A stretch of DNA of 35,451 bases from a virus. Both the position numbers and the translations under genes were made by a program. Below, in pieces: positions 1-35,341 of the stretch. The notes beneath the pieces are model-generated. The model worked only from the letters and a program-made list of their open reading frames with translations. It was not told where the DNA came from and did not search any database. Each line of letters starts with the position of its first letter. The stretch's first letter is position 1. The stretch covers positions 1 through 35,451 of the IMG/VR virus record IMGVR_UViG_3300019487_000066; one strand, 5' to 3'.

Positions 1-1245
1 CATATCATTAAATCTTTGCTGAGCATTTGCTAAATTAGTTCTTGCCCATAGTAAATTTTGTGTATCAGATCCACCAACAGCACCTGGGGCAAAAGCTGCG
101 ATCTCTGCTCTAGCCGCATTTCCCCATCCTTTTTTACCACTATTAATATGTTTATCATATACAGCTTGAATTCTTTGTGCCATTGCTAAATCACCTTCCA
201 CTGGAGCTAATTTAGCACGATTTGCGGCAATTGCCTGATTCAAACCTTCTTTATCATAAGCTAATTGACCTTGTTCGTATCCACCAACTTTTGTAGGATC
301 ATACCCTTGTAAATCACTACCCATTAAACGTTTTAAATTACTAAATCTTTGAAATTGTTCTTGGTTCATTAATTCTTCAGGTCTAGCGGCTTCATTGAGT
401 CCACGGCCTTGAAAACGAACAACGTCGCCTAAATTAACACCATATGTACGATCACCGGCCTGTAATCCCAAGGCCTCTAATGCTTGTCTTGATAAATAAT
501 TTTCAGATGATCCACGTTGTCTTTCTTGTTCAGCTTGTGTTCTTAATGAAGCATCTCTTTCATTTGCAAGTTTTGCGGCTTCTTGGGCGGGAGTTAATAC
601 AGTTTGAGCACCCTCACCTGCACGTTGAGCAACGTTTCTTCCAAATCCTTGAGCTTGACTCTGATATTGTTGTCCAACTTCTTGAGCCCCTTGTTGTGCA
701 GATTGAGCTTGTTGTCCAAGACCACTAACTGATCTACGAGCACTTTTTAAATCTTTTCCACCAGTTGCACCTAAAAGAAGACTATCCAGTCTTTGTTGAC
801 CAGCTTGATATTGATTAGGACCAGCAGCATAACGTTGAAGGAGAGCTTGTCTACCACCAGCGGTTCCAACTTGTTGACCTAAATTTTGAGCTTCTTGAGC
901 TTGTCCTGTTACAGATCCAGCATTTTTAAGACCTAAAGGACCAGTATATCCACCAGCTCTAAATCTATCGAAATCTTTAAAATCTTGTTCATTAACATCA
1001 TCTGGACGACTTAAAACGTCTTCTACACGTTGTCTATTGGCATCGGTATCTAATCTACCAGCCTCTGATTGTTGATTAAACTCGCTCTGAGCCTGTTGTA
1101 ATCCTTGACGAGCCTGTTCACCCGTTTCCTGAATTCCTTGACCCACAGCTTGTCCTAAACGCGTACCACGATTTGCATTCATAATTCTCTGCAAATTGGT
1201 AAAGCCGGACCCTTGTGGTTTTGGTTTATTTATATTAGTTGCCAT
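1..1245 (-). CDS. Q/A/G-rich virion-type protein, C-terminus cut by window edge
   Basis: The frame is open from an ATG at 1243-1245 to the left edge (415 codons, no stop), so the gene is partial. The N-terminus reads MATNINKPKPQGSGFTNLQR. The protein is very rich in Gln, Ala, Gly and Arg, with many short QAQ/GQQ-type segments and no membrane helix, as expected for a long helical, partly disordered internal virion or ejection protein. It is the last gene seen downstream of the tail-hub gene, which is where short-tailed phages usually keep internal virion proteins. Promoter-like element P1 lies directly upstream and leaves a leader of only about 15 nt, in which GAGAAG would act as the ribosome binding site. 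The function is inferred from composition and place only; I recognise no domain. Confidence 0.8.
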   Translation of the reverse strand, partial: MATNINKPKPQGSGFTNLQRIMNANRGTRLGQAVGQGIQETGEQARQGLQQAQSEFNQQSEAGRLDTDANRQRVEDVLSRPDDVNEQDFKDFDRFRAGGYTGPLGLKNAGSVTGQAQEAQNLGQQVGTAGGRQALLQRYAAGPNQYQAGQQRLDSLLLGATGGKDLKSARRSVSGLGQQAQSAQQGAQEVGQQYQSQAQGFGRNVAQRAGEGAQTVLTPAQEAAKLANERDASLRTQAEQERQRGSSENYLSRQALEALGLQAGDRTYGVNLGDVVRFQGRGLNEAARPEELMNQEQFQRFSNLKRLMGSDLQGYDPTKVGGYEQGQLAYDKEGLNQAIAANRAKLAPVEGDLAMAQRIQAVYDKHINSGKKGWGNAARAEIAAFAPGAVGGSDTQNLLWARTNLANAQQRFNDM

Positions 1246-1252
1246 ATAAAGA

Positions 1253-1280
1253 CTTCTCTACTATAACAGTTGTTAAAATA
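1253..1280 (-). promoter_or_regulatory. Putative phage late promoter P1
   Basis: On the minus strand the core TTTTAACAACTGTTATAG is followed by TAGAGAAG. The core is shared with six other minus-strand sites, each heading a minus-strand gene block. Initiation near the G of AGAGAAG would give a very short leader before the ATG at 1245. Confidence 0.6.
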
Positions 1281-1298
1281 TTGATATAATTCAGCATA

Positions 1299-1715
1299 TT
1301 ATGTTCCATAAGCCACTACAGTTATTAAATACTGTTGATCAGATTGTAACCCTGTAATATGATTAATATTTACGATATTGGAGTTCTGCCCAAATGAAAT
1401 AAATGGAGAAGAAGTGGGATAACTAGTTGATATCGTTTGATTAATTACTTTTAATACGTTACAACCCAAAACTCTCATATTTACGTTATCTAGTTGAAAA
1501 CTGGCACTATTTTTAGGAATTCCATTGGCATCAACGATTATAATTACATCCTTGACTGTGCAAAATAAATTATCTTTTAACGAAAGTTTACGATTTAAAG
1601 CTTCATAAAGAGGATCTAAATCGTTATTTATAGTAAACGCTAATGTTTCTATTAGATCCTGATCTTCATCTTTGAAATTCTGTTTTTCTAATCTTTTTAA
1701 TCCAGGTAAACGCAT
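1299..1715 (-). CDS. Hypothetical structural-region protein (138 aa)
   Basis: Starts at an ATG overlapping the stop of the tail-hub gene (TAATG), so translation is probably coupled. It begins MRLPGLKRLEKQNFKDEDQD, an acidic helical N-terminus. A beta-rich second half follows, ending in ITGLQSDQQYLITVVAYGT. There is no signal peptide or membrane segment. Its position between the tail hub and the Q-rich partial gene suggests a small tail or fibre-attachment component, but I do not recognise the family. It is the last gene before promoter P1. Confidence 0.8.
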   Translation of the reverse strand: MRLPGLKRLEKQNFKDEDQDLIETLAFTINNDLDPLYEALNRKLSLKDNLFCTVKDVIIIVDANGIPKNSASFQLDNVNMRVLGCNVLKVINQTISTSYPTSSPFISFGQNSNIVNINHITGLQSDQQYLITVVAYGT

Positions 1716-4700: not shown

Positions 4701-6286
4701 TTGGCGTAAAATGTATAATTTTTAAATGTATTTATATCTTTGGCCAAAGGAGGAATATCATTAGCTTGAGTAATTCCTTCACCAGTTGCTTCATTTGTGT
4801 AAAGATTTGCACCCCTAAATTCATCGGGCGTTATATCTTCAATTATAATTTCTTTAGCAGCTAATTCGGCAGTGGTTGGAAATGCCTCATAAACAAGTTT
4901 CATTTCATCGTCTGGCACTAAATCACTTAGAACAGTTGTTCCGGTAGCCTGTGCAATATCCGAACGATAAACTTGAAAAAAATCATTAGATGTTACATTT
5001 TGAGGTATTGTTATGTTTAGTTTTGTATGAACTGTTGTTGTTATATCTAAAACATCAATATATTGAGAAGCTAAGGAATTTGAAATTACATCTTCGGGTT
5101 CTGATTGCAATCTAGTAATGATACTTTGTAGATATGTTTGTATTTCCACTAATTGAGCATTGGTTGTTGGTGTACTTGGAATTGAAGGTTGTGTTATAGA
5201 TCTATATTCATTAGATCTAATAAAAGCAGATCCTGAAACTGTTCCAGCACCATCTGGAGCCGTTTTATTAAAAGAAATAGTTGTAGCAGTTACAGCAGAT
5301 AATGAATATGTTCCATCTAAAGAATTTGTTGCACTATCTGAAAATCCTGATATTTCAATTTTACTTCCAATTATAAAATAATCTGTCGGATCGCCAGTAG
5401 AAAATGTAATTGTAACAACATTACTAGTAACACTAACTGTACTAATATCTAAAGGATAAGATCCAGGGGTTGTTTCGTCTGCATATTTAATATCAAAATC
5501 TAATTTAGCTGCTAATGCTATAAGATTTGTTCGAAGTTCAGAAGCCGAAGCTGTTATAGGAAGTTTTAAAGTTTCAACATAATCACCATCAGTTATTAAA
5601 CTTCCGGTTTGATTAATATCATCTAAAGCACCTAAAATAAAATTAAAATCTTGAAGTTCTAAGGCTAAAAGTGAATTATAAATTTCAGATCTTTGACTAG
5701 GTGTTCCACGAATCAAATTGTTGTTATTATCTCTTTTGAGCCATAAAATTCTATATGCAACAGCACTATCTTGAGGTAAAAATGAAGTTTGATCACCTAA
5801 TTCATAAACAATTTCTGAAGTTAAATCTACAGCTTTAATTCCACCAGCATCAACAATATATCCAGAATCTGTGGTTAATTGAGAAGCATTTTTAGCTGAA
5901 ATCTTTTTTATACCATCATTTGTTGTAAAATATAAGTTACCATTGGCTTCAATACTTTTAATACGAAGTCCTGGTTCAGTTTCTGTATATGAGCCAGAGA
6001 ATTCATTAAAAACTTCTACACCACTTGTAGTTTGTGTTCCGGCATCAAATTCTAATTTATCTGAATAATGGCGAATAATACGATCACGATAGCTAATTAA
6101 TTGTTTAGCTCGATCGGAAGATGTTCCAAATGTTTCCCCGAAGATTTTCATTCCTCTACGAGGTTCAATAACATTTTCATCTCTAATAATTATATTTTTA
6201 GCTTCTATCATGCTCCCAGGTGGTGTTTCCAACTGATTTATTGCGGTATTTAAACCGAGAGCTTTAAGAAGAATACTAGCTGGCAT
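1715..6286 (-). CDS. Tail hub / stabilisation-type protein with four inserted beta modules (1523 aa)
   Basis: The N-terminus (about residues 20-50: QLETPPGSMIEAKNIIIRDE, then EPRRG) and the block at about 950-1065 (PNRIYYSKFQEPEAVPIVNF, then DSLFVFKEDGLYRISGE) are the hallmarks of podovirus tail proteins related to the P22-type stabilisation/tail-hub family. These form the tube below the head-tail adaptor. At 1523 residues it is much longer than usual. The extra length includes four FCCH-like beta modules at about 283-354, 559-638, 874-937 and 1256-1324; the last two are the most alike and share a PHGM/PHEL turn and the ending T(T)FS(I/V)PVNV. It starts at an ATG 4 nt after the adaptor gene. 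The assignment as tail hub rather than T7-like nozzle is by motif memory, not structure. Confidence 0.85.
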   Translation of the reverse strand: MPASILLKALGLNTAINQLETPPGSMIEAKNIIIRDENVIEPRRGMKIFGETFGTSSDRAKQLISYRDRIIRHYSDKLEFDAGTQTTSGVEVFNEFSGSYTETEPGLRIKSIEANGNLYFTTNDGIKKISAKNASQLTTDSGYIVDAGGIKAVDLTSEIVYELGDQTSFLPQDSAVAYRILWLKRDNNNNLIRGTPSQRSEIYNSLLALELQDFNFILGALDDINQTGSLITDGDYVETLKLPITASASELRTNLIALAAKLDFDIKYADETTPGSYPLDISTVSVTSNVVTITFSTGDPTDYFIIGSKIEISGFSDSATNSLDGTYSLSAVTATTISFNKTAPDGAGTVSGSAFIRSNEYRSITQPSIPSTPTTNAQLVEIQTYLQSIITRLQSEPEDVISNSLASQYIDVLDITTTVHTKLNITIPQNVTSNDFFQVYRSDIAQATGTTVLSDLVPDDEMKLVYEAFPTTAELAAKEIIIEDITPDEFRGANLYTNEATGEGITQANDIPPLAKDINTFKNYTFYANTQTRHRKQLSLLGVTNMVLDYGSGLNSNTFTSVDVNTTTDVITNTAHGYLDGQSVEFSNAIPSNLPGGITQSVTYYILNATANTFQISLEKDGSPVDITSGGTGTHTVKNQLPQIVITNGTTTNVYKFVVGTYEQTQFTTIAGSLLNLVGEGSYFFLNSANDGKLYTPWYSNGVTTDPNIPGRISIPIVFDGSETDAQIAEKSANKLSTFIADFSVVSSTNTFTVTNILSGYTTDATAETSGFTVSVLTQGIGEDASQNQVLLSNLVSVGQAVDETARSLVRVINKNSSEIVAAYYLSTAGGVPGQILLESLDLSSGIVYILGNNDNTGLSFNPDIGPENYIVSNSVANPTVITSASPHGMENGDQVVIINSNSTPSIDGLYSITYVTSTTFSIPVNVTVAGTMGSFVIASNAVFSDNEEKPNRIYYSKFQEPEAVPIVNFLDVGSQDKEILRIFPLRDSLFVFKEDGLYRISGEIAPFVTALFDSSCILIPPDSLAVVNNVIYGWTTHGISIITESGTDVITKNLDDIFLRLGSDNYPDFKTATWGVGYEADNSYIVYTVKTTTDEDAEIGYRYDQITRTWTSIDKDYRCGVINSDGRLYAGPGDTNAIEQERKQFNRYDYADREISNELAPNSYFDTLLKFFQVDDTFEGDVLVQNQLLTIYQYNQTLKKLDTDTSVNDTDYFSTLEAIGGVSLRTKIIELAQKLDADTGIADSNYFDNIDTKSGTITAVSISNPTIITTSTPHELHTGRIVTISGTNSNPPINDTYPVTVISPTTFSVPVNVNLTAGTTGSFSTIDTDFRDIQTCYNVIIEKLNLDVGVNFSNYQPSVGTTVQESVITRVNKITKELTVNLTLPYIQGPMIIFNSIKTSFIYSPSTFDDPLSLKQVREFTMMFKDKSFTSATISFASDLKPKFNRVPFSGDGNGIFGFMNFGEGFFGGGSHAAPFRSYIPRDNVRCRYIVVKFEHGIAREFYKIYGITLVAETGQSSRAYR

Positions 6287-32500: not shown

Positions 32501-32860
32501 TTGACTGAGCATTAAGGGCAACACGTACTACGGTCCCTCTACCCCCCTCTACCTTATAGCTGATTTTGACGAGCTGTTTGAACAGAGGGTCGTTGATGAG
32601 TTTACTTCTTCTCTCTCTATCTCTACTATCCTATCTCTATTATCTATTCTCTTGCCTATTCTCTTGGTATACAGCATATGCTATACAGCTTAAGGGAATG
32701 GACGACAGCATTACCTAAGACCTTTTACATACATGCAAATTGCACCTGTCTACATTTTTGACAGTGTATAGAAGTTTGACAGTGTAGTGATTTCACACAC
32801 TTAAAGAGTTTCTGTATATTCTTTTGACAGTGGCGAACTTTTTTACAGATGTGATTTCAG
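32501..32860. promoter_or_regulatory. Control region: TTTGACAGTG repeats, dyads and a pyrimidine tract
   Basis: No gene. It contains three copies of TTTGACAGTG (32757, 32775, 32823), each holding a consensus -35 TTGACA but without a TATAAT at the right distance. A GTGA-TT-TCAC dyad lies at 32787-32796 within a wider AGTGT...ACACT dyad (32781-32801). CTGTT-TG-AACAG is at 32574-32585 and the palindrome AGCATATGCT at 32673-32682. An almost pure pyrimidine run covers 32601-32665. Operators or replication iterons are plausible. Confidence 0.4.
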
Positions 32861-32879
32861 CTACTTAGCACTTGGCACA

Positions 32880-33304
32880 GCGTCTGCAATACTGGTTTGC
32901 AAGCGACGCAATTGTAGAACGTAGCCTCTGTCGTAGACGGCACCGCGATGTAACCAGTGCTTGTCTTGTTTCACCTAGAGGTTGTGCTTGAAGTGAGCAA
33001 GACTGTAAGTCATTGAGGGCGAGAAGCTAGTCGAAAGGTTGAGAGCTAACCTGTCTATGGCATGGGAAGAGTGAACACTCACGAGTACCATTAAGACCTA
33101 ACAGCGTTAGATTAAATACCAAGTGGTCTCAATCTTATACCCTGTACTGAAGTCCTTTCGAGGATTGTATAGAAAATATGGTATTATAGCCGCTGAGAAC
33201 AACGCACATGAGAACAACCCGAGCGATAAGACCCATGTCAAAGTTAGGGCTTATGTGAAATAAACTCAGTGAATTGCTATTGCTAACGTGTCTCGCGTTA
33301 GCAA
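32880..33304 (+). ncRNA. Candidate structured RNA, chain of eight stem-loops
   Basis: No credible ORF. Successive helices are: 32880-32909 (GCGTC/GACGC plus TGCAA/TTGCA), 32963-33003 (11 bp with one bulge), 33036-33052, 33069-33080, 33098-33110, and 33136-33171 (TATAC/GTATA with inner AGTCCT-TTCG-AGGATT, a UUCG tetraloop). Then come 33226-33254 (ATAAG/CTTAT and CCC/GGG with a bulged A) and 33280-33304 (9-bp TTGCTAACG/CGTTAGCAA). The region is visibly richer in G+C than the surrounding genes, a usual sign of structured RNA in AT-rich genomes. The plus strand is preferred because it reads into the ribozyme. Confidence 0.55.
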
Positions 33305-33307
33305 GTG

Positions 33308-33389
33308 AATAGAAGACGAAACAGGGAAATACTGTCAAAAGTATTCCCTGTAGCGTAGTTATTTCACTACGCCTGATGAGTCTAATATT
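33308..33389 (+). ncRNA. Type II hammerhead ribozyme
   Basis: All core elements are present in type II order. GAAA core at 33318-33321. Stem III 33322-33333 with 33340-33350 (one bulged A, loop GTCAAA). U16.1-A17 cleavage site T33351-A33352, then stem I GCGTAGT/ACTACGC (33353-33359 with 33366-33372, loop TATTTC). Core CTGATGA 33373-33379. Open stem II AGAC (33314-33317) with GTCT (33380-33383), extended past a GA/AA internal loop by AATA/TATT (33308-33311 with 33386-33389). Cleavage is predicted between 33352 and 33353, which would free the mRNA of the gene at 33406 with a 53-nt leader. The internal loop in stem II is where type II ribozymes contact loop I. Confidence 0.85.
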
Positions 33390-33405
33390 GTAAAGGAGAA
33401 ATACA

Positions 33406-33675
33406 ATGGAAAATCAAGAGAAGTTAAATTCTATTCAAGCTCAAATTGAGGCTCTTAAAGCTGAAGCTAAAGCTTTAAAGCCGAAAAAAGAGCATACTCT
33501 CTCATTCAAAGTGAATGAGAAAGGTACAATTTCTGTATATGGATTGCAGAAATTTCCAGTGAGTTTGTATCCCACACAATGGGAAAAACTCTTTAAAACT
33601 ATGCCTGAACTCATGAAGATTGTTCAGCCTTTAATTGACGCTGCTAAAGCTGCTGAAGAAGTTAAAACAGCCTAA
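33406..33675 (+). CDS. Early-region phage protein with N-terminal coiled coil (89 aa)
   Basis: First plus-strand gene after the ribozyme; AAAGGAG lies 7 nt before the ATG. Residues 1-27 form a Lys/Ala/Glu coiled coil (LNSIQAQIEALKAEAKALKP). Residues 35-75 carry KVNEKGTISVYGLQKFPVSL then YPTQWEKLF, a pattern known from small phage proteins of unknown role (Gly-Val-Tyr-Gly-Leu ... Pro ... Gln-Trp). Ends in an Ala/Glu helix. Probably abundant, early and soluble; function unknown. Confidence 0.85.
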   Translation: MENQEKLNSIQAQIEALKAEAKALKPKKEHTLSFKVNEKGTISVYGLQKFPVSLYPTQWEKLFKTMPELMKIVQPLIDAAKAAEEVKTA

Positions 33676-33766
33676 TTCGACCTACCCTTCCCCTTACCCC
33701 TACCCTTAAGGTCGAAACGCTGTAGTGAGCCTATTACAGCGTCTGAGAGTGTATCTTTCACTGAGG
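33676..33766 (+). other. Intercistronic hairpins; C-rich loop is a G-quadruplex motif on the other strand
   Basis: An 8-bp hairpin TTCGACCT/AGGTCGAA (33676-33683 with 33709-33716) carries a C-rich loop whose complement reads GGGTAGGGGTAAGGGGAAGG G, i.e. four G-runs of 3-4. Next is ACGCTGTA/TACAGCGT (33717-33724 with 33735-33742) and a weaker AGTG...CACT hairpin before the GAGGAG binding site of the next gene. No T-run follows, so these are not ordinary terminators. Confidence 0.55.
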
Positions 33767-33776
33767 AGACCATAAG

Positions 33777-34178
33777 ATGATGACATATGATCGTGCTAGA
33801 GAGTTGTATAACTCTGCTAGAAATAAAGCTAAAGGAAAGCCTATAGGAAATAATCTTAGGCTTGTTAAAGTTTGTATGGTTGATAAGTATTACGAGCAAG
33901 AGGATGTAGTGATTACATTGCCTGTATATGGGATTGTTTATCACGACACTGTAATTGTAAAGATATATCCTTGTGATGCACCGTTTAATGAATATAGGAT
34001 ATATAATGGTGGATGGTTCTCAATAACAACAAAGAAGAATATTAATAAGTTTATACCCTATACTGTTGTTCAACGAAAGGGTGAATGGTTTGTTCAAGTT
34101 GAAGGTAATCTTAAACCGTTTGTTGAAGGTTTAAAGTTGAGGATAAAATTAAATGTATTTCTGGCACCTATTGTTTAA
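33777..34178 (+). CDS. Early phage protein, zero-frame product (133 aa), with -1 slippery site
   Basis: GAGGAG stands 8 nt before ATGATG. Residues 4-118 match a common phage family: helical RARELYNSARNKAKGKPIGN then NLRLV, a beta core with YGIVYHDTVIVKIYP, GGWFSITTKKNINKFIPY and EWFVQVEGN..PFVEGLK. After codon 120 the zero frame gives only LRIKLNVFLAPIV and stops. The slippery heptamer T TTA AAG at 34130-34136 is in exact X XXY YYZ register, and a -1 shift there continues as VEDKIKC... (see 34130-34351). Either this is programmed frameshifting (191-aa product) or a recent frameshift mutation. Confidence 0.82.
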   Translation: MMTYDRARELYNSARNKAKGKPIGNNLRLVKVCMVDKYYEQEDVVITLPVYGIVYHDTVIVKIYPCDAPFNEYRIYNGGWFSITTKKNINKFIPYTVVQRKGEWFVQVEGNLKPFVEGLKLRIKLNVFLAPIV

Positions 34179-34561: not shown

Positions 34562-35341
34562 ATGAGTTGCAAAGTATATAGCTTAGATGTATTCCGTCGA
34601 ACAAAGAATAAACAATCATCCCTTATAACTTTAGCATCTAATAATATAGTTAACAATACAGACTTTAACTTTCAATCTATTATAGATATGTTATCATCTA
34701 TATTTGGCAACGATCAACCCGAAGGTGGAGTTATATACAATGACCCGGTAGAAGAAAATTATATTGATGCTTATGGTAGAGGTTGTATTCATAATTCTAT
34801 ATTTCAATACCACCCTAAAGAAGGTTCAAACGAACCTTGGAATAGACCAATGCCATTTCCTAGTGATATAAATAAGATATATAAAGCCATTGAAAAGAAT
34901 AAGGGTAAGACAATGTACTTAGGGTATAAGTCAGACCCTCTTATGTGGATGGATGATAGGTATAAGATAACAAAAGAAATTATAAGATATGCAACATTAT
35001 ACAATGTTATTCTCATCATTAATACAATGAGTGATCTATGTGCTTATGATGATTACATTCACTTAATAAAAGAAGGTAAACATATTATTAATATGAACAT
35101 GAGCTTGAATGATGGGAATGAAGAATTAGAACGACGTCTAAGCCCTGGTGCTCCAAGTTTATTACGTCGTAATAAAGCAATTGAGAAGTTAAGAGTTAAT
35201 GGTGTTGAAGTTACAATACAAGAGTTTAAAACAATTGAAATAAAGCATAAGCGATTTGCATTAGCTATGGGTGGTAATGTTGGAGATGTCATTAAGAGTG
35301 GAGATAAGAATATTATATCCTCTATAACGCAATGGAACTAG
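34562..35341 (+). CDS. Radical-SAM-like protein lacking the CX3CX2C Fe-S motif (259 aa)
   Basis: The order of conserved blocks follows the spore-photoproduct-lyase/Rv2578c-like radical SAM group. These are YGRGCIHNSIFQYH (72-84) where GCxHxCxYCY is expected, MYLGYKSDPLMWMDDRYKIT (118-137), and TKEIIRYATLYNVILIINTM then SLNDGNEELERRLSPGAPSL (181-200) with LRRNKAIEKLRVNGVEVTIQ. In the cluster-binding segment only C75 remains; the other two positions are S79 and Q82, so a [4Fe-4S] cluster could not be bound in the usual way. It therefore looks like a barrel that lost its chemistry or uses another cofactor. Start ATG behind AAGGGG. Early gene; role unknown. Confidence 0.68.
   Translation: MSCKVYSLDVFRRTKNKQSSLITLASNNIVNNTDFNFQSIIDMLSSIFGNDQPEGGVIYNDPVEENYIDAYGRGCIHNSIFQYHPKEGSNEPWNRPMPFPSDINKIYKAIEKNKGKTMYLGYKSDPLMWMDDRYKITKEIIRYATLYNVILIINTMSDLCAYDDYIHLIKEGKHIINMNMSLNDGNEELERRLSPGAPSLLRRNKAIEKLRVNGVEVTIQEFKTIEIKHKRFALAMGGNVGDVIKSGDKNIISSITQWN

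Follow-up and report, generated by a model that had tools for sequence, protein, structure and literature searches.

What does a self-cleaving RNA do at the head of a phage gene set? The role of prokaryotic hammerheads has been called an open question (PMC6155905). Type II hammerheads that flank genes in phages go back in the literature to 2011 (PMC3088659). The window (the whole 35,451-nt stretch of DNA that was analysed, IMG/VR record IMGVR_UViG_3300019487_000066) is a tailed-phage fragment with a plus-strand gene set that runs divergently from the structural block; of the early timing given to this set in the initial annotation, the divergence is all that the window shows. The initial annotation placed a complete type II hammerhead ribozyme at 33308–33389 on the plus strand, here termed HHR1, and its coordinates, invariant core, and three stems were all verified. 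Direct reading of the core gave GAA at 33318–33320, A15.1 at 33321, U16.1 at 33351, A17 at 33352, and the CTGATGA segment at 33373–33379; predicted cleavage falls at 33352/33353, directly after the U-A dinucleotide that had been assigned there. A17 is rarer than C17 at hammerhead cleavage sites. Stem I has 7 bp (GCGTAGT/ACTACGC, 33353–33359/33366–33372), stem III has 12 bp with a single bulged A, and stem II has 4 bp (AGAC/GTCT, 33314–33317/33380–33383) followed by a 2×2 internal loop and an outer helix (AATA/TATT, 33308–33311/33386–33389). This structure is both the minimum free energy (MFE) fold and the centroid, with a z-score of -5.7, and was equalled by 0 of 200 shuffles. By eye, loop I (UAUU) can pair with the AAUA 3′-adjacent to stem II, in competition with the outer stem II helix, and a U at position 1.7 is invariant in alignment A3.

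The same hammerhead grammar, applied to the remainder of the window, revealed another type II hammerhead, HHR2, at 33704–33777 on the plus strand (helices 33705–33776), with predicted cleavage at 33743/33744 following C17 (33743). The annotated ribozyme is therefore not solitary, its neighbor having been overlooked. In HHR2, stem I is TGAGAG/CTTTCA, stem II is GGTC/GACC with an additional outer helix (CTTA/TAAG), stem III has 11 bp, and the core segment is CTGAGGA (33761–33767); the predicted structure is the MFE fold (z -2.9). Both elements contain C3 U4 G5 A6 N7 G8 A9, G12 A13 A14, A15.1-U16.1, and H17, and in both MFE folds stems I and III are loop-closed and stem II is open.

To assess chance occurrence, 60 Mb of Markov sequence was generated to match the dinucleotide composition of the window; in it, a descriptor specifying the exact core and three stems gave 0.009 type II matches per window, none with stems this strong. 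The Rfam type II covariance search suggested in the initial annotation was run and RF02276 did not report HHR1; across the Rfam hammerhead models, both HHR1 and HHR2 went unreported at the gathering threshold and at E values up to 10. Because no Rfam hammerhead family reports either ribozyme, two covariance models were built: R1 from 12 type II hammerheads found in the window or in related phages, which is biased by the choice of its members on structure, and R2 from 106 ribozymes of other phage contigs. The out-of-sample model R2 recovered HHR1 at exactly 33308–33389 (47.1 bits, E 1.2e-9) and HHR2 more strongly (53.7 bits, E 3.1e-11), with nothing else matched in the window; E values from R1 and R2 are rough. 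The miss by RF02276 is attributed to model sensitivity, because most complete type II hammerheads in other phage contigs escape that model too, while R1 finds its accepted members. R1 also recovers the three hammerheads in phage contig L152 that belong to RF02276, which provides a link to the named family. Hammerheads of the relatives were not reported by RF02276 at gathering score. Most of the phage type II hammerheads in this analysis thus escape current Rfam hammerhead models, and the phage-trained model recovers 106 hammerheads in 60 contigs. Rfam matches to freshwater-2, S15 leader, NsiR9, and JA01 in the window were weak, below cut-offs, and chance-like, and were rejected.

A core pattern silent on the stems was then scanned over IMG/VR and gave at least 102 matches in at least 80 loci. 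Among the matches listed, stem I has at least 6 bp in 102/102, stem II at least 4 bp in 97/102, and stem III at least 4 bp in 90/102, and 88/102 are complete ribozymes by all criteria; 71 of the 88 complete matches listed sit 13–92 nt upstream of an ATG preceded by a Shine-Dalgarno (SD) sequence. The reversed core pattern had no match in the same listed loci. Stems that fail to covary had been named at the outset as evidence against the ribozyme; covariation is seen in this listed stem-blind sample, with 98.5% of cells paired versus 31–42% when slid, the alignment being fitted to structure. This set offsets selection bias for hammerheads at large and not for the clade to which the window belongs, where covariation in alignment A3 is biased because the R1 members and descriptor matches were picked by structure. 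Arrays of up to eight matches in 4 kb occur among those listed, and type II arrays were seen in the phage contigs L152 (892–4790, minus strand, eight matches), L169 (10790–13088, plus strand, five), and L141 (9654–11598, minus strand, four), most of which Rfam misses; in eight loci from the stem-blind search, Rfam reports three hammerheads. A separate observation concerns phage contig L193, where a 66-nt RNA (6081–6146, minus strand) matches only both ends of tmRNA (the tRNA-like domain, with no reading frame).

No DNA similarity of the ribozyme region to phage records was found. The same virus is also represented by a 76.6-kb IMG/VR contig, which differs at 14 SNPs in 35 kb and, because none of them lies inside a ribozyme, adds no covariation. 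Portal protein alignment with Proteobacteria phage MWH-Nonnen-W8red 1 led to 80 IMG/VR loci, including this contig; the portals of the other 79 are 35–66% identical. About 1.27 Mb of related loci was scanned with strict and then relaxed (score 14 or more) hammerhead descriptors, the latter with a null expectation of ~1.1 matches/Mb. Matches occurred only in the syntenic place and strand, 5–10 kb upstream of the portal gene and on the opposite strand. Ten lineages carry hammerheads, with one to three ribozymes each (the window, L010, L013, L031, L040, L043, L045, L058, L090, and the L019/L020/L021/L023/L082 group); their portals are ~53–66% identical to that of the window, and all fall within one supported 41-row clade of the portal tree. 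No hammerhead was detected in three clade members in which the region is covered (L012, L026, and L039), indicating that the element is dispensable, and none was detectable in eight loci outside the clade with the region covered. Place and strand are kept while topology shifts: L031 has three hammerheads (a type III with a one-base insert after A9, a type III, and a type II), L090 has one type II and one type III, and the L019 group has two type II elements with a one-base insert after A9 and covarying stems. L043 and L045 each contain one further, less regular hammerhead with a long stem III. In L043, the hammerheads at 1678–1804 and 1182–1313 (minus strand) hold inserts of 50–80 nt in their stem III loops, one with an ATG reading frame. 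Taken together, the R2 match, synteny in ten lineages, and covariation in the stem-blind sample make the assignment of HHR1 as a type II hammerhead well supported.

The two ribozymes bracket a single gene. ORF1 (33406–33675, plus strand) encodes 89 aa, predicted to form a coiled coil and a small β/α domain; its AlphaFold model (pLDDT 75) combines three strands and two helices with a long N-terminal helix. The model gave no significant fold match in the PDB, and the window protein gave no significant Pfam or PHROG match. ORF1 is homologous to the hammerhead-bracketed ORFs of L031 (E 2e-10), L045 (1e-4), and L043 (linked via L045 at 4e-6), so that with the window the bracketed gene is shared by four phages; a profile also detected a homologue in L090, where it is unbracketed. 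The hammerhead pairs of L090 and the L019 group bracket ~260–310 nt with no obvious ORF inside, and those in L090 (6215–6613, minus strand) and L019 (3017–3358, minus strand) resemble excised structured RNAs, with GAAAGTCC and GATAAGAC motifs. ORF2 (33777–34178, plus strand; 133 aa, weakly Kyano_Gp96-like) starts directly after HHR2, and the HHR2 core/stem II segment CTGAGGAGACC includes its SD. Farther downstream, 34562–35341 on the plus strand encodes a 259-aa protein that weakly resembles phage proteins with a DNA repair photolyase/radical SAM annotation.

Upstream of HHR1, the element TTGGCACAGCGTCTGCAAT (32872–32890, plus strand) resembles a sigma-54 -24/-12 promoter and is conserved upstream of the hammerheads of relatives. 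It matches TGGCAC-N5-TTGCA with GG-N10-GC spacing, a pattern picked after the repeats had been seen. Within 1.5 kb before the first ribozyme, the sense strands of 11 loci carry 18 GG-N10-GC elements, against three in ~400 kb elsewhere. The P value of this strong enrichment should not be read at face value, because the pattern was picked post hoc and the phages are related. Sigma-54-like elements lie upstream of hammerheads in the window, L010, L013, L040, L043, L045, L058, L019, and L023. In 14 clade records there was no sigma-54 DNA-binding domain and no activator domain above cut-off, so RpoN and its activator would have to be those of the host. Three copies of TTTGACAGTG (32757–32832, plus strand) precede the promoter-like element and may be activator sites; the HHR1 stem III loop contains the reverse complement, ACTGTCAAAA (33331–33340). 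Only one further TTGACAGT occurs in the 76.6-kb relative.

Between the promoter-like element and the HHR1 cut lies a predicted noncoding leader of ~450 nt (32899–33352, plus strand; start approximate). The proposal that HHR1 sets the 5′ end of the mRNA and frees an upstream RNA fits this layout, and both events would be natural consequences of HHR1 cleavage. That the released RNA is a specific structured RNA is in general unsupported: folding z-scores across 32800–33175 are unremarkable, though G+C is raised (up to ~0.50 versus ~0.30). With those z-scores and no Rfam match, the upstream region was also rejected as a named noncoding RNA, and blastn showed no clade-wide sequence conservation there except within the L019/L023/L082 group. 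The comparison drawn initially with RNase III sites overlooks the main point, namely that one ORF is bracketed by two ribozymes.

We favor, with a probability of about 0.78, a reading in which two self-cleaving hammerheads divide the transcript and free a single-gene ORF1 mRNA from the leader and the downstream operon. HHR1 and HHR2 would cleave the plus-strand RNA during transcription, at 33352/33353 and 33743/33744, and because they bracket ORF1, three pieces would result: the ~450-nt leader, a 391-nt ORF1 mRNA (33353–33743, plus strand), and the downstream mRNA. The boundaries of the 391-nt RNA follow from the predicted cleavage sites, its 5′-OH end beginning in the HHR1 stem I hairpin and its 3′ end lying in the HHR2 stem III hairpin. 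Established hammerhead chemistry predicts a 5′-OH and a 2′,3′-cyclic phosphate at each cut; the former would sit in a stem I hairpin with the next start codon 53 or 33 nt downstream, and the latter would be closed by a stem III hairpin. With cuts that leave hairpin-capped ends, the ribozymes could act as built-in processing sites that need no protein nuclease to fix the ends and stoichiometry of the mRNAs. Cleavage activity, the nature of the product ends, and an effect on expression are what we infer from this architecture. The two-ribozyme arrangement is kept at this position in related phages, and its conservation suggests that RNA self-cutting, and not a protein nuclease, divides the phage transcript. 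Given two ribozymes, a conserved gene, a promoter-like element, and ten divergent lineages, the processing hypothesis is directly testable. A broader version, in which the whole clade has an early-type operon that is driven by sigma-54 and cut by hammerheads, with types II and III swapped, the gene kept, and some cores serving as ribosome-binding sites that gate translation, is considered doubtful.

Gating of translation by cleavage was also weighed as the primary function: the open helix of the ribozyme would hide the SD and self-cleavage would free it, as in engineered switches, for which SD-masking hammerheads offer a precedent (PMC10381313). The HHR2 core/stem II holds GAGGAG 8 nt upstream of the ATG, CTGAGGAG followed by ATG also precedes both the ORF2 homologue of L043 (38% identity) and an ORF in L045, and in L031 and L090 an SD lies inside stem III of type III ribozymes. 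However, predicted SD accessibility is nearly equal in the intact and cleaved states (0.69 to 0.72 for HHR2, with most others alike), and in HHR1 and several others the SD is outside the ribozyme. This reading, attractive as it is for HHR2, is ranked low because folding gives no change in SD accessibility, and we regard it as unlikely.

Still less probable is a circular or ligated product, in which the ends of the bracketed RNA would be joined after excision by reverse cleavage or RtcB. Tandem hammerheads are the arrangement of circular-RNA elements, and in L043 and L045 both ribozymes have the same stem II, which would allow a hybrid closing ribozyme there. In the window, HHR1 and HHR2 are not copies of one another and the hybrid stem II would have only one base pair, which makes a circular product unlikely; splicing and circles were sought in other tandem hammerheads and went undetected (PMC3088659). 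That the elements are inactive relics or chance folds is very improbable. Four of 18 consensus hammerheads tested in 2011 did not cleave (PMC3088659), but chance expectation is far too low, two ribozymes lie 390 nt apart, and across divergent relatives the cores are intact while the stems change. Transcript division by two active ribozymes remains the preferred reading.

The literature search found no later paper on this phage clade, most subscription journals being outside its scope. The window ribozymes resemble RF02276 Hammerhead_II (Perreault et al. 2011, PMC3088659) in their order (GAAA, stem III, H17, stem I, CUGANGA, with an open stem II), invariant core, and phage context, but differ in their longer stem III and in the A17 of HHR1. 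For tandem hammerheads next to prophage genes, cleavage has been published in vitro and, for one set, in vivo (PMC3088659). As in those arrays (e.g., the ardA region of Agrobacterium; PMC3088659), several hammerheads here bracket single genes; hammerhead-flanked genes had earlier been called not constant or non-conserved (PMC3088659; PMC6155905), whereas in this clade four phages have homologous bracketed ORFs. HHphage of haloviruses HF1/HF2 is likewise a hammerhead that lies shortly before a phage start codon, with a transcript 5′ end mapped close to its cleavage site (PMC3088659), but it is a single element with a variant core from phages of extreme halophiles, in contrast to the two canonical cores described here. 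In engineered SD-masking switches of the Wieland and Hartig type (PMC10381313), a 5′-UTR ribozyme also has the SD within or close to its open helix; the window ribozymes are natural, and folding predicts no SD release. Relative to known type II hammerheads, the conserved bracketed gene, the topology swaps, and the common sigma-54-like promoter are new here.
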